Of a stretch of DNA of 64,000 nucleotides, positions 3,816 through 63,904 are shown piece by piece. Source of the stretch: Hyphomicrobiales bacterium (GTDB taxonomy: Bacteria; Pseudomonadota; Alphaproteobacteria; Rhizobiales; Devosiaceae); NCBI GenBank assembly GCA_027487555.1, contig JAIYDI010000018.1, forward strand, positions 372,001-436,000, given 5' to 3'. The notes beneath the pieces are model-generated. The model ran no database searches and had not been told where the DNA came from. It saw only the letters and a program-made list of their open reading frames with translations. The number at the start of each line of letters is the position of its first letter. Position 1 is the stretch's first letter. The translations under genes and the position numbers were made by a program.

Positions 3816-6800
3816 CTAAATCACCAGAAAATCCGCATAGGTCAGACTGGCTCCGTTCGTTATCGTCGCGAACTGCACGGCGAGTCCCGCACCGCTGCCG
3901 TCGGCGTCATGGTACAGTGCCCCTGTAGCGGAATTGTAGATGATCCGGTCATCCACATCGACGGCGGCGCTCCCAGAGACGAACGCGGTATCAGCCAACG
4001 CTCCGATAGCAAGGCCGGCAAATGGCCCCCCGGCGGTGGCTTTGAGCTGAACCGTGTCGTAGATCGGATTGAAGTCGACAACTTGGTCGATGTTGGCTGC
4101 GCCAAGAGCAGCGGAGAAGACGAAGACATCGGCTGATGTATCCACGAATCCAGCGAGGATGTCATTGCCTAAGCCGCCATCAATCACGTTCGCCCCGGTG
4201 TTGCCGGTAAGCGTGTCACCGGCGGATCCGCCGCGGATGTTTTCGAAGTTGGAGATGGTGTCGGTGCCGCCACCACCTGTGGCGGTGTTGGTCGCAAGGT
4301 TCACCGTCACGGCTGTTGCGATGCCGTCATAGCTGAGGGTGTCATTTCCACCCGCACCATTGAGAGTGTCGTTACCCAATCCGCCAGCGATGACGTTGTC
4401 GCCGGCGCTCCCGGTGATGTTGTCAGCGGCCGATCCACCGATGACATTTTCGATGCCAGAGATGACGTCGGTTCCCCCACCGCCGGACACAGCGTTGGTG
4501 GTCAGGTTGACCGTGACCGCCGTGGCGACGCCCTCGTAGGTGATGGTGTCGCTGCCCGCACCGCCGGTTAGCGTGTCATTGCCGGCTCCACCGTTCAGGA
4601 TGTCATCTCCCAGACCACCGACAAGGCTATCGTTGCCACCATTTCCGATCAGGCGGTCGGCAAAGCCGGTGCCGGTGATGACGTTGACTCCAGCGTTCCC
4701 TATAACGGTCAGGCTGTTCAACACGCTTGCGGCGTTCACGTTGATCGCGGTGGTTGCGGTCAATGTCGCAGTTGCAGTTGTTCCCGTGCCGATAGTGACA
4801 GACTCGATGCCGGTAACGGCACTAGTCAGTGACAGCGTTGCAGCGACTGTCGTCGCGAAACGGAGTTCATCCGTGCCATTGGACCCGGTGTCGCTAGTGA
4901 TTTCACCGGATGCATAGTCGCCGAGGACACTCAGAATATAGAGATCTGACCCATCGCCGCCGTCGAGCGTGTCTGCACCACCAAGCCCGTTGATGATGTC
5001 GTTACCGGCGCCACCGATGATAATGTTGGCTGTCGTGGCATTGCCGGTCAAGGTATCGTTACCGCTGCCGCCGGTGAGGTTCTCGACTAGGCTGATCGTG
5101 TCACTGCCTGCACCGACGGTGTTTTGCAGCGCCGTCGAATTCAGCGACACGCTAACGGCTGCAGACATATCCTCGTAGCTGACCGTATCAATCCCGGCCC
5201 CGCCATTGATGATGTCGTTACCCGCTCCGCCGATCAGCGTGTCGTTACCGTCGCCCCCGTTGAGGGAGTCGTTCTCAGTTCCGCCCTCAATTCGGTCATT
5301 GCCCCCAGCGCCGTTGATGGTGTCGGCCCCGGCATTGCCACGGATCCATTCATCGTCGGCAGTGCCCGTGTAGTTGTTAGCGGTGCCGTCTAGATCGATC
5401 GCATCGTCGTTGATGATGGTTCCGACGGCGGAACCGGTATCGATGATCAAGCCAGCGCTTGCGCCTGACAACGATACGAGAAGCGTTTCTCGCTGTTCGG
5501 CCAATGTATCACCGGCGACGAGCACGGTGATCGTCTTCTCTGTCTCACCTGCATCAAAGACAAGAGTTCCAAAGGGCAAGGCATTCCCCAAGAAATCTGA
5601 TGCCGCCACCGCATTGGACCCGGTTCCGGTAACAGCCCAGTCAATGCTCTGTGACGCCAACGAAGCGGCACTCAGGTTAACCCTGAATGTAAAGGCCACC
5701 GTTCCGGTGTTGCCTTCTACTTTGGTGGCATCCACGGTGGCGATACTGACAGAAACGGGTGTGACGAGTATTTGGTTATCGAACCGCAGATACTCGATCC
5801 CGGTAAGTGTATCAGTGCCATCCAGCCCGACCACCGTCAGCTTGCCGCCAACAATCGAGAACGCATAGGCGGAGCGGTTGCCAGCAAATACAGCCGTATC
5901 CAAGCCATCACCGCCTGCAATCGTGTCATTGCCAAGTCCGCCGTCTAGGCTGTTGTCGCCGCTATTGCCGGTCAACGTGTTGCCGAGCCCATTGCCTGTG
6001 CCGTTGATATTGGCGGTACCCGACAGAAGCAGGGTCTCAATATTGCTGCCAAGGGCAAAACTGACCGATGCCTCGACCCGATCGGTCCCTTCGCCTAAAG
6101 CCTCGACCGCGACATCTTCGGCATCATCGACGACGAAGACGTCATTGCCCTGACCGCCAACCAGAGTGTCTGCACCGGAACCGCCATCCAAAGTGTCGTT
6201 GCCGCTGCCACCTTCAAGGCGATTGGCGACATCGTTGCCCATCAGAAGATTGTTGCCGCTGCCGCCGATGAGGTTCTCGATACCGTGGTCCCAAGCCAGA
6301 GTATCTATGCCCACTGAACCCGTGTCCTGATCAGCGTCGCTGGCTAGGCTAAAGGAGATGTTGCCGCTGACCCCGGCGAAGCTGATCGTATCGATGCCAT
6401 CACCGCCCCAATAGACGTCGTTGCCGAGACCGCCGATTAGGAGGTCATCGCCATCGCCGCCAAGCAAGTTGTCATCGCCGTCGCCACCCGATATCGAGTC
6501 GTTCCCCGCACCGCCATCGAGAATGTTGGCGCCGGTGTTGCCGATAATGAGGTTTGCCAGAGCGTTACCGTACGCATCGATGTCGCTGCTACCTGTCAGC
6601 GTTAAGTTTTCGACATTGGCACCGACAAACGCAGCACCGGTCGCTTGGTCTGGTTCAGTCACAAGAGACACGCTCGAACGAACCTCGTCGCTTCCTGCGC
6701 CTGCGAGTTCCTGAACCCGGTCCCCCACGGAATCGACGACATAGACGTCGTTTCCCGCGCCGCCAATCAGTGTATCGTCACCGGTGCCGCCGTTGAGAGT

Positions 6801-9554
6801 GTCGGCACCAGTGCCGCCAACAATGATATTTGCGAGTGTGTTGCCGGAAAGAGTCTGCCCCCCCAACGGGGCTGATAGCCCCGACCCGGAGTATGCCTTC
6901 AGGTTTTCGACGTTCGCCGCCAAAGTGTAGGCGACGAGGTTGGTATAGACCGTATCGTTCCCTTCACCGGCCTTCTCAGAGACGAGGTCTCCAGTGGCGT
7001 CGACGATATAGCCGTCATCACCCAGCCCGCCATAGAGCTTGTCGTTGCCGGTGCCGCCATTCAGCAGATCATTTCCGCCCATGCCGTACAGCACATCTGC
7101 TCCACCAAGCCCGTTTACCCAATCCGCCGACAAGCCCCCGAAGAACCTGTTCGCACTCGCGGTGAGTTGCCTTTCGGTCAGGGGATTTGTGACGGTGACA
7201 CTCAGTGCTTGCTGGTCTTGCGCCCCCGACGGGTCAAGCACGGCAACCGTGACTTCATAGACGTTGTTCCCACCGGCATCGGTCGGCGCGAGCACATCGG
7301 GCAAAGACCGCCAAGCCAGTGCGCCGGTTGCGTCGTTGATGGTGAACAGGTCCGCATCGTTACCGCCCACGATGCTGAAATGGAAAGTGTCCGCATCCTC
7401 GTCAGTGCCGGTCACGGTGGCTACATTTGCCCCAGCACCCCACGCATAGCTGACGCTGCCCGTGTTGCCGCCGCCATGTGAGGTGATGGTAGGCGCGTCA
7501 TTCGTGTTTCCGACGGTGATGGTGAAGGTATCTGAGACGGACGCGCCGTGAGTATCCGTCGCTGTGACGGTGACGTTGATCGCACCGACGTCGCCATTGG
7601 CAGGCGTGCCTGAGAAAGTGCGGGTCGCTGCGTCAAAGCTTAGCCACACGGGGAGAGCTGCGCCACCCGCCAAGGTCGCCGAATAACTTAAGATGTCACC
7701 GACATCGGGGTCAGTGAACACGCCCGAGGCAACCTGATAGCTAAAGGCGCTGTCCTCGGTTGCCGGGCGATCAGGAACGGCGCTGGCAAGGACAGGGCCG
7801 TCATTCGTATTGATCACTGTGAGGTTGAAGGTCTGCGACGCTGACGCGGACGAGCTGTCGGTCGCTATGACCTTGACGCTGCTCACGCCCACGTCGCCAT
7901 TTGCGGGGGTGCCGTAAAAGGTGCGCGTGGTGGGATCGAAGACCAGCCAAGTTAGGAGGGCGGCTCCGTTTGCGAGCGTGGCGGAATAAGTCAATGTATC
8001 GCCCAAATCGACATCGGCAAATGCATCGCTGGGCACTTGGAAGCTGAAATAGCCGTCCTCGTTTGTGCTACGGCCCACAATTGCGACGCCAACGGTGGGC
8101 GCGTCATTCGTGTTTGCGACGGTGATCGCGAAGACGTCCGAGACCGAAGCGCCGTGAGTGTCCGTGGCTGTGACGGTGACATTGATCGCGCCAACGTCGC
8201 CGTTAGCAGGCGTGCCTGAGAAAGTTCGGTTTGCTGCGTCGAAGCTCAGCCATGTTGGCAACGCGGCCCCGTTCGAAAGGGTCGCCGAATAGGTCAGCGT
8301 GTCGCCGACATCTGGGTCGGTGAATGCATCGGAAGCAACCTGATATGTAAAGGTGTTGTCCTCGGTTGCCGGGCGATCAGGAACGGCGCTGGCAAGGACA
8401 GGTTCGTTCTCTATCGTAAAGAGAGCTAGGGTCTGTGGACTAGCGCCATTGACTCCTAACGCGCTGAGGTACGAAGCAACCAAATTACCGTCACTTAGGA
8501 ATACGAGCTTCGGGTCGGATGGCGCATCAAATGCAGTCTGACTTACTGCGAACTCCGAACCAAATCGAGATCCGTCACTTTTGAATAGTTGCGCATAGAC
8601 CTCACGACTGCCACTTTGATCCTCCCAAGCAATGGCAAAAACCCCATCGGAACGTACGGCGATCTGCGGATAAATCTGCAATGCAAATTGCGTAGTGTTA
8701 ACCTGAAACTCACTACCGACCTTTTGACCTGTGGAGTCTACGATTTGAGCGCGGATCGATCCGCCATAAATATCCCCTGTCTGACCCCACGTATCCAGCC
8801 ATACGACGACATAATTACCGTTCGGCAAAACCTTCAAAATGCTCTGATACTGATCTCCGATAATGTTTGTATTTACCGTTGTCACTGTCGACATATTACC
8901 TGTGGCAATATCAATCGATCTGAATTTGATGTCAGGGTCTCGTCCTAACGAATTGTACTGACTCCATGCGGATGCAATAGTTCCAAAATTACCATCTATA
9001 TGTGGCGTTCCAGAATATACATCCGATATGATGCCAGATATATTTATCTCATTGCCAGTTGGTTGACCAGTAGAGGTAAATTGCTGGAGGTAGTGGTTTG
9101 AATCGTTCTTACTAAAAGAAACGGCGAAACCTCCACTATCAAGTGCAGTTATCGTGGGGTTTTTGGCGTAATTTGATGTGCTAGCGACAGATGCGGTCTT
9201 AATTATATCGCCATTTTTCGAAATTATTTCATACAATACGTTAGTACCGAAATTCCCAGAAGTTGTAAAAACGATTACAAATTTGTCGGCACCAATGTAG
9301 GTTATGTCATTAATATACCCGGTTGGTATTTCTGCGTTGCTGTTTGTATATATCCGACCAAACAATTTCTCTCCATTGTTAGAAAAATATCCAAACTCGA
9401 CCTGTGGTTTTGTGGGATTTTCATTAATTCTAGTCAATACGGTAGCGAAACCTCCCGATCCGGCCGCAATTTTTGCGCTGGACCAATCTGTTGATTGCGA
9501 GTAGGGGCTCATGGTGGTTACGTTGAAGTCATTCTTAATGCGAATGAGGTCCAT
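3816..9554 (-). CDS. Giant RTX protein with beta-propeller-like, Ig-like/cadherin-like and Calx-beta domains
   Basis: About 1,912 residues. Order: an N-terminal repeat region (about 1-385) with blades such as YPQIAVRSDGVFAIAWEDQSG; three near-identical putative-Ig (He_PIG) modules (about 385-685) with NDAP linkers; a cadherin-like module (about 685-790); many GGxGxD RTX nonapeptide blocks; a Calx-beta domain (about 1267-1384) ending GTIINDD; more RTX; and a C-terminal type I secretion-type region (DVFVFSAALG through YADFLVI). It is expected to be Ca2+-binding and exported by a type I system, but no HlyB/HlyD genes are in the window. ATG 9554 is preceded by AGGAC at good spacing; the upstream GTG at 9602 is less likely. 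DNA for the first 385 residues is visibly more AT-rich than the rest, suggesting mosaic origin. Role (adhesin or biofilm protein) is inferred. Confidence 0.9.
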   Translation of the reverse strand: MDLIRIKNDFNVTTMSPYSQSTDWSSAKIAAGSGGFATVLTRINENPTKPQVEFGYFSNNGEKLFGRIYTNSNAEIPTGYINDITYIGADKFVIVFTTSGNFGTNVLYEIISKNGDIIKTASVASTSNYAKNPTITALDSGGFAVSFSKNDSNHYLQQFTSTGQPTGNEINISGIISDVYSGTPHIDGNFGTIASAWSQYNSLGRDPDIKFRSIDIATGNMSTVTTVNTNIIGDQYQSILKVLPNGNYVVVWLDTWGQTGDIYGGSIRAQIVDSTGQKVGSEFQVNTTQFALQIYPQIAVRSDGVFAIAWEDQSGSREVYAQLFKSDGSRFGSEFAVSQTAFDAPSDPKLVFLSDGNLVASYLSALGVNGASPQTLALFTIENEPVLASAVPDRPATEDNTFTYQVASDAFTDPDVGDTLTYSATLSNGAALPTWLSFDAANRTFSGTPANGDVGAINVTVTATDTHGASVSDVFAITVANTNDAPTVGVAIVGRSTNEDGYFSFQVPSDAFADVDLGDTLTYSATLANGAALLTWLVFDPTTRTFYGTPANGDVGVSSVKVIATDSSSASASQTFNLTVINTNDGPVLASAVPDRPATEDSAFSYQVASGVFTDPDVGDILSYSATLAGGAALPVWLSFDAATRTFSGTPANGDVGAINVTVTATDTHGASVSDTFTITVGNTNDAPTITSHGGGNTGSVSYAWGAGANVATVTGTDEDADTFHFSIVGGNDADLFTINDATGALAWRSLPDVLAPTDAGGNNVYEVTVAVLDPSGAQDQQALSVTVTNPLTERQLTASANRFFGGLSADWVNGLGGADVLYGMGGNDLLNGGTGNDKLYGGLGDDGYIVDATGDLVSEKAGEGNDTVYTNLVAYTLAANVENLKAYSGSGLSAPLGGQTLSGNTLANIIVGGTGADTLNGGTGDDTLIGGAGNDVYVVDSVGDRVQELAGAGSDEVRSSVSLVTEPDQATGAAFVGANVENLTLTGSSDIDAYGNALANLIIGNTGANILDGGAGNDSISGGDGDDNLLGGDGDDLLIGGLGNDVYWGGDGIDTISFAGVSGNISFSLASDADQDTGSVGIDTLAWDHGIENLIGGSGNNLLMGNDVANRLEGGSGNDTLDGGSGADTLVGGQGNDVFVVDDAEDVAVEALGEGTDRVEASVSFALGSNIETLLLSGTANINGTGNGLGNTLTGNSGDNSLDGGLGNDTIAGGDGLDTAVFAGNRSAYAFSIVGGKLTVVGLDGTDTLTGIEYLRFDNQILVTPVSVSIATVDATKVEGNTGTVAFTFRVNLSAASLASQSIDWAVTGTGSNAVAASDFLGNALPFGTLVFDAGETEKTITVLVAGDTLAEQRETLLVSLSGASAGLIIDTGSAVGTIINDDAIDLDGTANNYTGTADDEWIRGNAGADTINGAGGNDRIEGGTENDSLNGGDGNDTLIGGAGNDIINGGAGIDTVSYEDMSAAVSVSLNSTALQNTVGAGSDTISLVENLTGGSGNDTLTGNATTANIIIGGAGNDIINGLGGADTLDGGDGSDLYILSVLGDYASGEITSDTGSNGTDELRFATTVAATLSLTSAVTGIESVTIGTGTTATATLTATTAINVNAASVLNSLTVIGNAGVNVITGTGFADRLIGNGGNDSLVGGLGDDILNGGAGNDTLTGGAGSDTITYEGVATAVTVNLTTNAVSGGGGTDVISGIENVIGGSAADNITGSAGDNVIAGGLGNDTLNGAGGNDTLSYDGIATAVTVNLATNTATGGGGTDTISNFENIRGGSAGDTLTGNTGANVIDGGLGNDILAGFVDTSADVFVFSAALGAANIDQVVDFNPIYDTVQLKATAGGPFAGLAIGALADTAFVSGSAAVDVDDRIIYNSATGALYHDADGSGAGLAVQFATITNGASLTYADFLVI
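7500..8402. repeat. Duplicated Ig-like module DNA within the RTX gene
   Basis: Within the RTX gene, 7752-7796 and 8358-8402 are identical over 45 bases, and 7537-7620 closely matches 8147-8224. The first and third Ig-like modules are therefore recent duplicates, while the middle one (about 7805-8105) has diverged. Such repeats favour expansion or contraction by recombination. Confidence 0.8.
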
Positions 9555-9694
9555 GTTTTTTGTCCTAGGGTGCGATCTGTAACCAGAGCCTAGGCTCAGC
9601 ACTCATTGCTCACAACCAGAAGATGACGGCCGCCGCTATGCAAGGCCCGCTCCTGATGAATAGGACGGGTCAGGTCGCGACGCCCGCGCATCAT

Positions 9695-11809
9695 TCATTC
9701 ACTGGAACCGGACATAACGAGATGATTGCTGGGCTGGGTCGGTTCGAACCGACTAAGCGCCCCCAAGCTTTCTGACAACGCTGCCTCGATGTCAGACACA
9801 ATCGTCGCGTTCCAGATAACGACCTTTGGTTTGGTCCCGGCACCAGCCCGCTGATAGCGAGCCGCGCAAAGATGTGGAGCTGCGTCCATCACGGCCGCCG
9901 CGAAGGCGGGAAGGTCCAAATTCGGGGAGGACGGCCCCGTTTTCGTATAGAGATATCTACTGGAATTCGAGGCTGTCCTCCTTTCCCGGTCACTTTTGAT
10001 CGCCTTTTCAGACCCCAATTCCGGCGCGATTCTTGCCAGATCCGCGGCACTTTCGACCCAAAGGCCTTGCCCAAGGGCAATCTCGTCTTTGCTGGCCCAC
10101 TCGAAAGGCCGAATGCTATCGACCGGAAGCGGCGGCAAGGTATCGCCCCAGATTTCAATCGTGACGGGGTCTTTCTCCGTCCGGTTCAGCCCGCGAGGGC
10201 GGCCGATTTCCTGAATGGTGCCGTCCTCGGCGATTGAGGCGCGGACCTCTTCAGCAAGCGGGTCCGGATGAAATTCCTTCTTGAACGAGGCACTGGTCCC
10301 GTCAGCCGCCACGACCGTCTCGTAACTTTCGGTGTACCATTCCGAGCATGGCGTCACGGCCTCGCCTGATAACGCACCGGCATATTGCTCGATGACCCAT
10401 GGCGGCGGCAGGTTTCGGCCGATAATGATCATCAACCTGACGTCCTTGAAGCCGTCCAAGCCGACCACGGCTCCGTGATGCAGGACCGGAACATGCGTGG
10501 GCCAGTTCGGAAATTGCTTTTTCCAAGACTGCGCCATAGCCTTCGTTGTGACCAGCAGCGTCCGGCCCGGCACCAGCGCCGCCCGAGCCAAGACGGCGTT
10601 TCCAAAGTCGCGGGCCGCACCTTCATTACCAAGAGCGCTACGGGACGTGGACTTTCCCGTCACCGCGACGATCCGTTGGAAGGGCGTTTTGATTTGGATG
10701 TCCGCCCGCAGGTCTAGGAGCGGCAGGACTTCACGGACGATCTTCTGGCGCATGGTGGCGTCAATATGCGCGACTGCGCCGAGCCAAGAGCCGTGAATAG
10801 GCCGGATCCTGCGAAGGACGAGGCGCATGCCCGGCTGCCCGTCAGTCATGGGCTCTAAGGAGAGGCGACCTGAAGCCTTTCCGCCGCTGAGAAACAGCCT
10901 CAGTTCCCACCAGATGTCGGCCAATAGGCGTGGGCTCGGGACCCGCGCCAGCCCATTATCTCGAACCGTGGCCCGCTCGTGCGCTGGCATTCCCGGGTAC
11001 ATGGCGGAGGTCATACGACGCAGTTCGGCGGAACGGGCGTCGAGGCAGAATTCGCGGTCAGTCAATCCGACGACCTCAAGACTTTCGCGTCGCATCGGAC
11101 CGAACCCGTTGATGTCGACTGCGGCCTTAAGCAAGCGCCGCATGGGCATGAGTTCGGCGGTCAAATCGTTCATTTTGTCGACGTGCCAGTCACCGCGGTT
11201 TCGACCCTTCGTTTTGCGGATGACAGGCTCGATCAGCAGATCGGCCACGTTGATGGCGAGGATTTCGGAAAGCCCCGCACCGAGACTTTGCCAAAAGCTT
11301 TCGTCGATGAGGACCGTCGTGGGCTTTGGAATAACCTCAGGACGTTTGAGCGCGAGATGCGCATGGTTCACGATCCAAATGTCTGCCGACATGCAGCGCT
11401 GGCGCATGTATCCGCAGGACGCGTGATGCCTGCAGGTGAATGGCATGCCGTCGATTTTTGTCTCACAGCAGGCGCTGAGCACATCTTCGCCAGTGGCCAA
11501 CGCCGCTCTCACCGCCTCAGGATCGAGGCACATTGCCTTGCCGGGGCGTTCCGGGTCAGGTGCTTCGCGACCACGCCATACGCGCACGCTGACCTTTAGG
11601 CCCCGTTTCTTGGATGCTTCCCAAAACCGATCAGCAACCTCATCGGCGAGCGCGAGACTGGGCACGGCATAGACGAGTGAGCCGCCTTGGTTCGCAAGCG
11701 TGTCCAGCTCCGCGTCAATAGCGGCGGCCGTTTTGCCGCCGCCGACATCGACGCGGACGGCGTAGGCACCCACCCCCGCTTCTTGCAGCGCTATTTTGAG
11801 ATTAGCCAT
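9695..11809 (-). CDS. XPD/DinG-like helicase of the integrative element
   Basis: A 704-residue protein with Walker A VDVGGGKTAA (K26), a DExH-like box VLIDES (D169-E170), and between them clustered cysteines (C114/C115, C126, C132, C139) followed by WIVNHAHLAL. This order (Walker A, Cys cluster, NHxLL-like motif, then Asp-Glu box) is that of the XPD/DinG iron-sulfur helicases. The C-terminal half (about 350-700) is unassigned, apart from a stretch about RTLLVTTKAMAQSWKKQFP and FKDVRLMIIIGRNLPPPW like a second RecA domain. The ATG at 11809 overlaps the end of the primase-like gene by 8 nt (ATGGCTAA), so the two are translationally coupled. It probably unwinds DNA for element replication. The Fe-S assignment is inference from motif order. 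Confidence 0.75.
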   Translation of the reverse strand: MANLKIALQEAGVGAYAVRVDVGGGKTAAAIDAELDTLANQGGSLVYAVPSLALADEVADRFWEASKKRGLKVSVRVWRGREAPDPERPGKAMCLDPEAVRAALATGEDVLSACCETKIDGMPFTCRHHASCGYMRQRCMSADIWIVNHAHLALKRPEVIPKPTTVLIDESFWQSLGAGLSEILAINVADLLIEPVIRKTKGRNRGDWHVDKMNDLTAELMPMRRLLKAAVDINGFGPMRRESLEVVGLTDREFCLDARSAELRRMTSAMYPGMPAHERATVRDNGLARVPSPRLLADIWWELRLFLSGGKASGRLSLEPMTDGQPGMRLVLRRIRPIHGSWLGAVAHIDATMRQKIVREVLPLLDLRADIQIKTPFQRIVAVTGKSTSRSALGNEGAARDFGNAVLARAALVPGRTLLVTTKAMAQSWKKQFPNWPTHVPVLHHGAVVGLDGFKDVRLMIIIGRNLPPPWVIEQYAGALSGEAVTPCSEWYTESYETVVAADGTSASFKKEFHPDPLAEEVRASIAEDGTIQEIGRPRGLNRTEKDPVTIEIWGDTLPPLPVDSIRPFEWASKDEIALGQGLWVESAADLARIAPELGSEKAIKSDRERRTASNSSRYLYTKTGPSSPNLDLPAFAAAVMDAAPHLCAARYQRAGAGTKPKVVIWNATIVSDIEAALSESLGALSRFEPTQPSNHLVMSGSSE

Positions 11810-60035: not shown

Positions 60036-60368
60036 TCAGTGCACGGCGGATTTCGAGAACAGGTTGATGACGACAACGCCCGCGATGATCAGCCCCATGC
60101 CGATCAGCGCCGGGGCATCAAGCACCTGCCTGTAGATCAGCCAGCTGGCGAGTGAGACGATCACAATCCCCACGCCCGACCAAAGGGCATAGGCCACGCC
60201 CACCGGCATGGTCTTCAGCGTCAGCGACAAGAAGTAGAACGCAACGGCATAACCGACGATCGATACCAGCGAAGGGACCAGAACCGTGAAGCCCTGCGCC
60301 GCCCGGAGCGCCGTCGTCGCGATCACTTCGGCGATGATGGCGACCGCAAGATAGGCATAGGCAATCAC
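60036..60368 (-). CDS. Small multidrug resistance (SMR) family transporter
   Basis: A 110-residue, four-helix proton-coupled exporter. TM1 has the essential Glu in AIIAEVIATTAL; GVAYALWSGVGIVIVSLASWLIY in TM3 is family-typical, and the length matches EmrE/QacE. It starts at GTG 60368 and overlaps the murD2 stop by 4 nt, so it is translated from the peptidoglycan operon. Substrate (a toxic cation or another compound) is unknown. Confidence 0.93.
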   Translation of the reverse strand: MIAYAYLAVAIIAEVIATTALRAAQGFTVLVPSLVSIVGYAVAFYFLSLTLKTMPVGVAYALWSGVGIVIVSLASWLIYRQVLDAPALIGMGLIIAGVVVINLFSKSAVH

Positions 60369-61684
60369 GATCCGTCACCGAACGCTTCGCCCGAAAGCTG
60401 CACGAAGGCCGCGCCACGTTCCTCGAAATTCTTGAACACCTTGCCCGGAGCCTCGAGCTGGCCATAGCTCGGCGCGCCGGGAGACAGAATCACCGTGTCG
60501 AAGCGCTCGCGGCGCGCGGCGAGCGCCGCGATGGCAGCCGTCAGCGTGCCGGCTTCCAGCACTTCGACCTGCGGAGCGGCCGAATAGGCGAGAGTGGCGA
60601 GGCGGTCGCCGGTCACCGGCAGGCAGACCAGCACCGTCACGCCGCGCGGGCCGAGCAGGCTGGCAAGCTCGGTGTAGTCCTGCTGGCGCTCGTGCCCACC
60701 CGCGATCAGTGCGATCCGGCTGCCCTCATAGGCGGCGAGCGCGGCCTTGGTAGCTTCGGGCGTCGTCGAAATCGAGTCGTTGACGATCGTCACCCCGCCG
60801 ATCTGATGTTCTTCCAGCCGGTGGGGCAGGGGTTCGAAACGCTGGATGCCGCGCACCACGCCTTCAATATCGCCGCCGGCCTTGAGCGCCAGCTGGGCCG
60901 CGAGGCGTGCATTGAACAGATTATGCTCCCCCTTCAGCCTAGAGCGGGCCACGGCGGACGCCACGCGGTCGGCGAGGAACGGCGCAAGCATCGGGATCAG
61001 CCGCTTCCTGTCGCGCAGCGCTTCGAGCACAAGTGGATGCTCGGCCGCACCAACCCCCAGCGCCACCGGGAAAGGGGTGTCGCGATCGATCAGGTTGAGC
61101 TTGTCCTGGTAGTAGCGCTCCACCGTTCGGTGCCAGTCGGTGTGCTCGGGCGAAAGATTGGTGATCGCAGCGAAGTCCGGCGTAAAGGCCATGTCCGCTG
61201 TCTGGTAGCTTGAGAGTTCGAACACGATCACCTTGTGCTTGTCCGCGATCTCGAGCGGCGCGAGGCCGACATTGCCAGCGAGCCCGGAGTCTATCCCCGA
61301 CTCCACCAGCATCAGGTGCACCAGCGTCGCCGTCGTCGACTTGCCCTTGGTGCCTGTAATCGCGATGACCTTGCGGCCCTCGCGATAGGTTTCACCCCAC
61401 AGATTGAGGTTCGAGGTCACCTGCACGCCGGCCTCGCGGGCAATCGCGAAGATCGGCCGGTAGCGCGAGACCCCGGGGCTCTTGACGATGGTGCCGATCT
61501 TGCCCGCCGCAATCGCATCCGGCAGGTCGGCTGGCGCGATGAATTCCGCGTCCTCGATATCGGCTGCGCCGCTGTCGACCGTCACGTAGACCTTCAGGTC
61601 GGGTGCGCGCGACTTGAGAAAGGCGCGGGTCGAGCGGGCTTCACGGCCGGCGCCGTAGAGCAGCACGGGCATGTCAGTGCGCAT
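60365..61684 (-). CDS. murD2: MurD2-type UDP-MurNAc-L-alanine:L-glutamate ligase
   Basis: A 439-residue Mur ligase. ATP-binding GTKGKSTTATL, EHTDWHRTVERYYQDK, LKGEHNLFNARLA, ISTTPEATKAAL and GGHERQQDYTELA are visible. Order relative to murL and overall sequence fit MurD2, which adds L-Glu rather than D-Glu to UDP-MurNAc-L-Ala. The D- versus L-specificity cannot be read directly from the sequence. ATG 61684 (AAGGTGG upstream) overlaps murL by 11 nt; ATG 61672 is an alternative. Confidence 0.88.
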   Translation of the reverse strand: MRTDMPVLLYGAGREARSTRAFLKSRAPDLKVYVTVDSGAADIEDAEFIAPADLPDAIAAGKIGTIVKSPGVSRYRPIFAIAREAGVQVTSNLNLWGETYREGRKVIAITGTKGKSTTATLVHLMLVESGIDSGLAGNVGLAPLEIADKHKVIVFELSSYQTADMAFTPDFAAITNLSPEHTDWHRTVERYYQDKLNLIDRDTPFPVALGVGAAEHPLVLEALRDRKRLIPMLAPFLADRVASAVARSRLKGEHNLFNARLAAQLALKAGGDIEGVVRGIQRFEPLPHRLEEHQIGGVTIVNDSISTTPEATKAALAAYEGSRIALIAGGHERQQDYTELASLLGPRGVTVLVCLPVTGDRLATLAYSAAPQVEVLEAGTLTAAIAALAARRERFDTVILSPGAPSYGQLEAPGKVFKNFEERGAAFVQLSGEAFGDGS

Positions 61685-63002
61685 GGGGGGCCACCTTTGC
61701 TTCGAGCGGGGCGGGAATCAGGTGTTCCTGGCTATCGTGCATCAGCGCGGCCCACGCAGCCTCGAGCCGCGGCGCGCCATACTGGGCGAGCAGGTCATCC
61801 ATGAGCAGCCCGACGATCACCTCGCCCTGCCACTCCGGCATCGTCGCAATCCGCCAGAGGCAGGCTGCGGCTTCCTCTATTTCACCAACGCATTCCCAAG
61901 GCTTCTGGCCGGCAAGGCCGGTCAGTTCGCGGAACGAGCGCTCGTGGTCGGCCTCTGCCAACAGGTCCTGCCCGAAAATCCCGGTCAGCCTTGCCTTTTC
62001 CATCACCGGCGCCAAGATCAGGAAGACGAAGTGGCATTTCGGGCAGCGGCCGCACCAGAGCGGGCCCTTGTGCCCGGCGAGCTTGAAATTCTCGTTGCAG
62101 CTCGAAAACACGTCGTCGAAGCGGGTTTCCCGCGCAAACAAGGTCGCGATCTTCGCCTCGGAATAGGGCCTCAAGAGCGAGAAATAGCCGAGCGCGCCGC
62201 CCGTCGCTCCTGCCAGCACCTCGGCGATCAACCGCTCGAAACCGATCGATTTCGAATGCTGGTGGTTGGCTTCGCGTCCATCGAACACGACATTGCCCTC
62301 GCTCGCCGAGCGCTCGTTTGAAAGCACGATGCGGTTGAACGACCAGAGCAGCGCCGTCAGCGCCGCGATCATCGAGTTGATCGCCGTTGAGGGCACGTGG
62401 CCGTTGTAAAAGCCGGGTTGCTTGCCGAGCCGGATCATTTCGGCGTCGAGCGTGCGCTTCACCGTCAGCGACGTCCGGCCGATCCTGTCGAACGACCCCA
62501 GGATCGGGCCCTTTGCGTTCACAGCGAAGGGGGTGAAATCCAGCCCCGCCTTTTCGAGCAGTTGCACCGAAACCAGCGAATCCTTGCCGCCGCCGATCGG
62601 CAGCAGCGCCCGGTCGCGCAGTGTCGGCGCCTCTGGTGCAGGGCCTGTGTCGTCAGGGGCCTCGATGATGATCTTCCCGAAGCGCTTCAACTCGTTGCGG
62701 GCATAGAACTCGCCAAGGCCGTTCTCGTAGACGTCGAGCGCGAAGGCGCGTTCCTTGTCCGTCAGCGCGATGCCGGTACGGATGGTGAAGGGCGCGCGGA
62801 GCTTGAAGTAGCTCACCCCGAGCACAATTGCGGTAAGCCCGAGCAGCTTCCCGAACGCGGGCGTATCGCGCACGGCCGCATCGAAGCCCAACGGAAACCC
62901 GAGCGTTTCGGTGAAATGGTGTTCGCCGAGGCCATAGCCAAAGCTCGCGACGCCGGTCGCAGGGTCGAAGCGCGGCACATCGATCAGCAGGAATTTGGGC
63001 AC
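61674..63002 (-). CDS. murL: MurL, UDP-MurNAc-L-Ala-L-Glu epimerase
   Basis: A 442-residue protein matching MurL, which flips the terminal L-Glu of UDP-MurNAc-L-Ala-L-Glu to D-Glu. It carries a PP-loop-like LLPIGGGKDSLVSVQLLEKAG, the NGHVPSTAINSMIAALTALL and SNERSASEGNVVFDG regions, a Cys-rich FSSCNENFKLAGHKGPLWCGRCPKCHFVFLIL, and a C-terminal helical region. GTG 63002 follows GAGG at proper distance, 8 nt after the metallophosphoesterase stop; the longer open frame to 63935 only overlaps that gene. Older databases label such proteins as endonuclease-like or hypothetical. Confidence 0.9.
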   Translation of the reverse strand: MPKFLLIDVPRFDPATGVASFGYGLGEHHFTETLGFPLGFDAAVRDTPAFGKLLGLTAIVLGVSYFKLRAPFTIRTGIALTDKERAFALDVYENGLGEFYARNELKRFGKIIIEAPDDTGPAPEAPTLRDRALLPIGGGKDSLVSVQLLEKAGLDFTPFAVNAKGPILGSFDRIGRTSLTVKRTLDAEMIRLGKQPGFYNGHVPSTAINSMIAALTALLWSFNRIVLSNERSASEGNVVFDGREANHQHSKSIGFERLIAEVLAGATGGALGYFSLLRPYSEAKIATLFARETRFDDVFSSCNENFKLAGHKGPLWCGRCPKCHFVFLILAPVMEKARLTGIFGQDLLAEADHERSFRELTGLAGQKPWECVGEIEEAAACLWRIATMPEWQGEVIVGLLMDDLLAQYGAPRLEAAWAALMHDSQEHLIPAPLEAKVAPHAH

Positions 63003-63010
63003 GGGCCGCC

Positions 63011-63904
63011 TCAGTAGATTCGCACGGAATTGCGCAGCACGATATCGGAACTGAGGCGCTGAAAGCCAAACTCCCGCATCGTGCACTGCCAGGCGGTGCC
63101 AAGCCGCTGGATCTGGAAGAGATTGTAGCGCGCCGGATCGTGCACCATCTGCTCGTGCTGCGCTGCACCGGCCGCCGCTACCCCGATCACCGGCACCTCG
63201 GCCTTGGGGCCTGCGATCGCGTAGATGCTCGATCGGTGGGTGTGGCCATGCAGCACCATTTCGGCGCCTGCTTCGGCGATCACCTTGCGGAATAACGGCG
63301 CCCCATAAAGGCCCAGGCGCGGATGGAAATTCTCGACGTTCGGCGGGTGGTGGATCAGCACCACACGGAAATATCCGCCATCGCCCAGGAGCCGCAGGAT
63401 TCGAGCCAGTCGCGCCGCCTGTGCCTTGTCGAAGCGACCGGTCGCGAGCCAGGGCGCTGTCGGCACCGCGCTCGAGCAACTGATGATCGCCACTTCCCCA
63501 ATGCGTCGGACGAAGGGGAAGGGGTTCAGGTCCACCGTTTCGCCGCGGATATAGCCGCCCCAGCGACGGATCGCCTTCTGCAACTGGCCCTTGACATAGG
63601 CATCGTGATTGCCAGGCGATACGCAGACGCGCAGCGGCTCGCCGAGCGTTTCGAGCCAGTTGTGCGCCACGTTGATTTCGGCATCGAGCGCCAGGTTCAC
63701 GAGGTCGCCGGTCACGGCGACAAAGTCCGGCCTCTGCTCGTTGAGGTGATGCACGAGCTTGACGAGCCCGTCGCCATCCAGGGTCCGCGCCCGCTTCAGT
63801 CGCCAGTTCAGGTAGCCTGTGATGCGCTTGCTGAACAGTTCGGTAAACCGAACCGGCGGCAATGGCGCAAGATGGGCGTCGGAAAGGTGTGCCAGGGTGA
63901 TCAT
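63011..63904 (-). CDS. Metallophosphoesterase (calcineurin-like)
   Basis: A 297-residue phosphoesterase. Metal-binding motifs: AHLSDAHL (DxH), VTGDLVNLALD (GD), SPGNHDAYV (GNHD), VVLIHHPP and VLHGHTHRSSI (GHTH). No signal peptide, so cytosolic. First gene of the operon with murL (8-nt gap), murD2 and the SMR gene. A link to UDP-muramyl metabolism is possible but unproven; a general phosphodiesterase is the null view. The region 63905-64000 upstream has its promoter; nothing else was seen there. Confidence 0.9.
   Translation of the reverse strand: MITLAHLSDAHLAPLPPVRFTELFSKRITGYLNWRLKRARTLDGDGLVKLVHHLNEQRPDFVAVTGDLVNLALDAEINVAHNWLETLGEPLRVCVSPGNHDAYVKGQLQKAIRRWGGYIRGETVDLNPFPFVRRIGEVAIISCSSAVPTAPWLATGRFDKAQAARLARILRLLGDGGYFRVVLIHHPPNVENFHPRLGLYGAPLFRKVIAEAGAEMVLHGHTHRSSIYAIAGPKAEVPVIGVAAAGAAQHEQMVHDPARYNLFQIQRLGTAWQCTMREFGFQRLSSDIVLRNSVRIY

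Follow-up and report, generated by a model that had tools for sequence, protein, structure and literature searches.

How a member of the Devosiaceae supplies the D-glutamate (D-Glu) of its peptidoglycan is the question raised by two overlapping genes in 64,000 nt of DNA from a Hyphomicrobiales bacterium (assembly GCA_027487555.1, contig JAIYDI010000018.1, positions 372,001 to 436,000; the whole stretch is referred to below as the window). The original prediction held that a GGGKDS protein of the MurL type overlaps a variant of the ligase MurD, and that the two provide a route in which L-glutamate (L-Glu) is ligated first and epimerised afterwards, in place of the glutamate racemase MurI and MurD. 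Both frames are open and share 11 nt, as had been claimed:

61674-63002, minus strand: murL, 442 aa, with a GTG start
60365-61684, minus strand: murD2, 439 aa
61674-61684, minus strand: the 11-nt overlap of murL and murD2

We put the probability that this gene pair encodes the MurD2-MurL route at about 0.92. This reading is supported by the identities of both genes, by the specificity residues of MurD2, by the lack of murI and of a murD in the division and cell wall (dcw) cluster, and by the predicted fold of MurL. The activities published for orthologues are ligation of L-Glu, an ATP- and Mg-dependent one-way epimerisation, and formation of AMP, and from the sequences we infer enzymatic activity for the MurL and MurD2 of the window.

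The identity of MurL was assessed by profile search and by phylogeny, both of which had been proposed as checks and both of which came out in favour. MurL matches the NCBIfam model NF041275 (MurL_Xanthmoales) over nearly its full length (362.5 bits at E 2.4e-108, with residues 11-438 aligned to positions 16-444 of the 447 in the profile), while its partner matches TIGR01087 (murD) with 251.1 bits, above the cut-off of 211.95; the matches to the two models are not due to chance. In a tree of 110 MurL rows made by a quick method, which also includes Pseudoxanthomonas and Micromonospora, the 61674-63002 protein lies within a 36-row clade whose named members are Devosiaceae (support 100). The tree omitted L092 (a run-on frame), L021 (a duplicate of the source genome) and the partial L040 and L042. 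A second group of Hyphomicrobiales MurLs (L068, L077, L079, L094, L101 and L117), from records named Beijerinckiaceae and Roseiarcaceae, forms a branch of its own (support 100) apart from the Devosiaceae clade. Conservation was read from an alignment of 41 rows (A3), comprising the window and 40 of 80 named loci, which are the 80 best among 573 relatives; another alignment (A1) had 20 rows standing for the 32 loci L010-L041, with the window in place of L021.

The stereospecificity of the ligase can be judged from a small number of positions, given here in E. coli numbering without Met1 where they are compared with other MurDs:

61145-61147, minus strand: MurD2 Glu180, corresponding to E. coli Asp182 and X. 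oryzae MurD2 Glu197
60686-60688, minus strand: MurD2 Arg333, corresponding to E. coli Lys348 and X. oryzae MurD2 Arg358
60770-60772, minus strand: MurD2 Ile305, corresponding to E. coli Lys319
60470-60472, minus strand: MurD2 Pro405, corresponding to E. coli Ala414 and X. oryzae MurD2 Pro433
60437-60457, minus strand: a 7-residue insert (LEAPGKV) in MurD2, adjoining the P405 loop

According to a 2021 review (PMC8788868), the choice of L-Glu by X. oryzae MurD2 is set by its residues E197 and R358, the double change E197D/R358K turns the enzyme to D-Glu, and K319T makes E. coli MurD accept L-Glu. The window MurD has Glu at 182, Arg at 348, Pro at 414 and Ile at 319, whereas these positions are Asp, Lys, Ala and Lys in every one of the order's 13 canonical MurDs. 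Among the 108 other MurL-linked MurDs, Arg348 is present in every one and Glu182 and Pro414 in 106 each (two not being covered at 414), and position 319 is occupied by Ile (77), Leu (30) or Asn (1); the loss of Lys319 throughout fits the effect of K319T in E. coli MurD. Position 416 (Tyr407 in the window protein) does not discriminate, because Tyr and Phe both occur in MurL-linked MurDs (74 and 31 of 108) and in canonical ones (2 and 11 of 13). The exceptions at 182 are L068:7296-8594, from a Hyphomicrobiales metagenome-assembled genome (MAG), and L117:7313-8629, from a Roseiarcaceae genome; these MurL-linked MurDs have Asp at 182 but Arg348, Pro414 and Ile319, neither genome gave a murI match, and they represent natural mixed cases for the study of stereospecificity.

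The AlphaFold2 (AF2) model of the window MurD2 (predicted local distance difference test score, pLDDT, 93.8) matches MurD structures, best 2uag (E 1.3e-27). In a quick tree of 98 MurD rows, reduced from 123 by dropping four that were partial or masked and 21 near-alike actinobacterial ones, a single branch (support 99) parts 84 MurL-linked rows, the window MurD among them, from 14 canonical rows. E. coli MurD and row D2g_L041 were flagged as long branches, and with midpoint rooting the latter is drawn on the same side as the canonical rows. Two other alignments comprised 18 rows for 31 loci with MurD (A2) and the window with 28 of the 80 named loci (A4). The nearest MurD to that of the window is 79 % identical and comes from a Devosia sp. 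MAG (L044); the columns of the 7-residue insert are occupied in three of the 123 aligned rows only, those of the window, L044 and L047, so the insert is a point of difference from the other Devosia and Pelagibacterium MurD2s.

If the route replaces MurI and canonical MurD, as was also predicted, the genes for these should be sought in the rest of the source genome (G000; 4.53 Mb, 52 contigs, 94 % complete). There we found no murI above the cut-off, the best match scoring 31.6 bits against a threshold of 146.65, no second murD above the cut-off beside that of the window, and no D-amino-acid transaminase above the cut-off (109.7 bits against 277.45). The last of these matches was rejected since the gene is IlvE, and the 31.6-bit PF01177 gene (C25) was rejected as MurI, being a YgeA-type Asp/Glu racemase; it passes TIGR00035 (197 bits, cut-off 93) but not PRK10200 (255 bits, cut-off 417). 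In E. coli K-12, murD lies between mraY and ftsW. No murD is present between these genes in the source genome, where the gap is 125 bp; the names of its dcw genes are ones that we take from the appearance of the sequences, and the places given to murE, murF and murC agree with the weaker Mur-ligase matches of the murD search. The window MurD thus has none of the marks of a canonical dcw MurD, namely the mraY-ftsW position, D182 and K348, and as far as sequence tells the predicted replacement holds for this genome.

The same pattern extends across the family. MurL was matched in 131 of 136 Devosiaceae genomes, or 117 of 119 when only those of good quality are counted. At least seven of the 131 matches are partial or in pieces, and the five genomes without one are 62-92 % complete. 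In G682, G691 and G726 the match is split into two adjacent pieces, possibly through sequencing errors. No murI above the cut-off was found in any of the 136. In a sample of 297 genomes from the order, MurL occurred in 13, which are all of the 13 own-family members present, and in none of the 284 others, and murI scored above the cut-off in 218 of the 297; in a sample of 398 from the phylum, MurL occurred in 20. Seventeen genomes picked for having MurL gave no murI above the cut-off and a weak match in three; two of them, G676 and G788 (whose match agrees in place and score with that of G677), were already in the family sample. When murD was searched for in 25 genomes, each had one above the cut-off, and by eye, from the coordinates, it adjoins MurL in the 12 own-family relatives and lies between murF-like and murC-like matches in the 13 order relatives. 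More widely, a MurD homologue adjoins MurL in 31 of the 32 loci L010-L041 and in 78 of the 80 named loci, and the linkage of MurL with a MurD2-like MurD spans Alphaproteobacteria, Gammaproteobacteria and Actinomycetota. Taken together, the family counts indicate that nearly all Devosiaceae have exchanged the usual source of D-Glu and the usual MurD for this route, and murI and a canonical murD should therefore not be assumed in this family.

Several observations weigh against the MurD2-MurL route and need to be set beside these results. MurL does not score the 700 bits that NF041275 has as its curated cut-off, although we do not count this against its identity, because the name of the model is limited to Xanthomonadales and none of the 136 family genomes reaches that value (9 of the 398 phylum genomes do); the threshold reads as one set for Xanthomonadales. 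The YgeA-like racemase of the source genome might supply some D-Glu, and a comparably weak match to TIGR00067 was found in 18 of 19 genomes of the same genus. Lastly, G676 has, together with MurL, a 113-bit murI-like match on contig 236 (L180; profile positions 1-200), which is below the cut-off and possibly represents either an exception or a foreign contig.

It could be argued from the racemase that the window MurD is an ordinary D-Glu ligase which has moved out of the dcw cluster, with the YgeA-like enzyme providing D-Glu and the MurL-like protein employed otherwise. The racemase does fit an amino acid racemase subfamily (TIGR00035), it has its weak counterparts throughout most of the genus, and the window MurD does pass the canonical murD cut-off, but the exchange of all four canonical residues and the linkage of MurL to MurDs of this sort in three large bacterial groups run contrary to a relocated D-Glu ligase. 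Moreover, a YgeA-type racemase is not general in the family, as far as TIGR00067 detects it, since sub-cut-off matches occur in 62 of the 136 genomes and 74 have none at E 0.001, against 131 with MurL. We regard this explanation as extremely improbable. The racemase would equally allow the two routes to run in parallel, with MurD2 taking both enantiomers, and the activity of X. oryzae MurD2 with D-Glu is described as extremely low rather than nil (PMC8788868); against this stand the failure of murI to reach its cut-off anywhere in the family sample and the finding that the sole murD above the cut-off adjoins MurL in the source genome and in each of the 12 family relatives, and we think parallel supply very unlikely. 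The MurD2-MurL route, with L-Glu ligated first, accounts for the pair far better in our estimation.

Xanthomonas, which the original prediction named as the organism of the described route, is indeed where the route was published, but it is not the only one, as the review already names Devosia and Pelagibacterium for MurL-MurD2 and reports Micromonospora and Salinispora orthologues as confirmed (PMC8788868); our locus L099 comes from one of the pathway users named there, Micromonospora sp. ATCC 39149. The X. oryzae pair MurD2 (XOO_1320) and MurL (XOO_1319) resembles that of the window in gene pairing, in the match to the MurL model, in Glu and Arg at the specificity positions and in the lack of murI. 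Unlike the Xanthomonas type, the window MurL is below the NF041275 cut-off, with about 37-42 % identity to gammaproteobacterial and actinobacterial rows, and the window MurD2 differs from that of Xanthomonas by Tyr for Phe at 416 and by the insert beside the P405 loop. The Devosia and Pelagibacterium pairs belong to the same MurL and MurD clades as the window and have the same 11-nt overlap (21 of the 23 loci L044-L066), and the closest named relatives of both proteins, among the best 80 of 573, are in Devosia, Arsenicitalea, Pelagibacterium and Maritalea. Since the pathway is thus already known in the group, the value of the present results lies in the family-wide pattern over 136 genomes and in a QueC-like reading of MurL, which seems new. 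We note also that, because the curated MurL model takes in none of the 136 genomes, Devosiaceae pairs risk being labelled as a hypothetical protein and a MurD of the D-Glu type.

The QueC-like reading rests on two motifs in MurL and on its predicted fold:

62577-62594, minus strand: PP-loop GGGKDS, MurL residues 137-142
62034-62099, minus strand: Cys-x14-Cys-x2-Cys-x2-Cys (C302, C317, C320 and C323), a predicted zinc site of the QueC type

Both the loop and the four cysteines are invariant in all 41 MurLs of alignment A3. The AF2 model of MurL (41 sequences) has a pLDDT of 95.4 and a predicted template modelling score (pTM) of 0.93, and when it was compared with the PDB by Foldseek, the only fold matches at E of 0.001 or below were two QatC structures (E 6.6e-6 and 9.1e-6) and two of QueC (2pg3, E 5.7e-5, and 3bl5, E 6.9e-4), each with a probability of 1.00. 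In a library of viral structures the two best matches were phage QueC proteins. According to a 2026 paper, QueC has the motifs SGGxDS and C(x)8CxxCxxC, the latter occurring in QatC as a variant with C(x)19 (PMC13329287), and QatC has four zinc-binding cysteines (PMC13279940). By predicted fold, by the likeness of GGGKDS to SGGxDS and by four cysteines in the arrangement C-xn-CxxCxxC, MurL resembles enzymes of this type, and the four-Cys site may hold zinc. The x14 spacing of the window MurL is that of five of the seven QueC rows of the order, which carry it with CxxCPxC (three of them CGxCPxC, like the window); the other two have x7. QueC itself (TIGR00364) scored above its cut-off in 7 of the 26 genomes searched, the source genome not among them.

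This likeness has its limits. The Foldseek template modelling (TM) scores are modest (0.35 and 0.64 for 2pg3), with an identity of 15 %; the first spacing varies among the MurLs (x14 in 14, the window included, x13 in 8 and x15 in 19); a profile comparison of MurL with QueC by hhalign, using shallow profiles, was weak (probability 11 %, E 0.0027), with MurD2 as a control giving 2.5 % and E 0.019; and the Pfam QueC family (PF06508) matched neither the window MurL nor any of the 41 MurLs, for which seven other Pfam families were returned at E 0.053 or worse. All of these count against the QueC-like reading, and on the absence of a Pfam match, the weak profile similarity and the identity of about 15 % MurL falls outside the QueC family in the sense of PF06508. 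A sequence search of the PDB with MurL alone found nothing at E 0.01, and one with the MurL profile gave marginal matches only, the best being TtuA (E 0.034) on the PP-loop stretch. MurL further differs from QueC in its size (442 aa, where the seven QueC rows have about 220-250 aa), in its substrate and in the stereo-inverting outcome. We nevertheless think it probable that MurL is an unrecognized branch of the QueC type, in which carboxylate adenylation has been redirected from amide formation to stereo-inversion. No earlier statement linking MurL with QueC or with a PP-loop was found in the literature searched, although subscription papers may hold one, and the accessible text of PMC13329287 does not mention MurL.

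As a QueC-like PP-loop ATP pyrophosphatase, MurL would bind ATP at the GGGKDS loop and adenylate the terminal Glu at its alpha-carboxylate, releasing pyrophosphate. In the Glu adenylate the proton on C-alpha would become acidic, to be lost and regained by exchange. Hydrolysis of the adenylate would then yield AMP along with the D product and so make the epimerisation one-way. The modelled fold, the PP-loop and the four cysteines support carboxylate adenylation, with conversion of ATP to AMP, as the likely driver of one-way epimerisation, and going by the model we favour placing the adenylate step within the QueC-like fold. QueC uses ATP to activate a carboxylic acid (PMC13279940), and AMP is the reported by-product of MurL (PMC8788868); these facts tell against a variant in which the pathway is right but ATP cleavage activates another group, such as a peptide carbonyl or the gamma-carboxylate, rather than the Glu alpha-carboxylate. 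Such a variant is rather unlikely, although the review offers the site of activation as no more than a hypothesis (PMC8788868) and the substrates of QueC-like enzymes are diverse (PMC13329287). The review calls the mechanism of this epimerase unclear (PMC8788868); the QueC-like fold provides a structural frame for it and points to particular residues. Apart from those of the ATP and Cys sites, the residues H202, H247, K251, E256, K367, E370, C371 and E374 are invariant in all 41 MurLs and are candidates for the proton-transfer pair.

The genes on either side of the pair provide context only:

63011-63904, minus strand: metallophosphoesterase gene (PF00149), 8 bp upstream of murL
60036-60368, minus strand: small multidrug resistance (SMR) gene (PF00893), with a 4-nt overlap with the end of murD2

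The protein encoded by the first gave only weak matches in NCBIfam. A homologue of it is present in 19 of the 23 loci L044-L066 and an SMR homologue in 12 of these 23, compared with none of the 57 loci L067-L123 in either case. The 11-nt murL/murD2 overlap is itself kept in all 13 own-family loci, the source genome being one of them; in six loci of family f89 the overlap is 20 nt. Elsewhere in the window, positions 3816-9602 hold an open frame of 1928 aa in which GGxGxD-like repeats are numerous, and the G+C content falls to 0.50 at 8001-10000, adjoining this frame.

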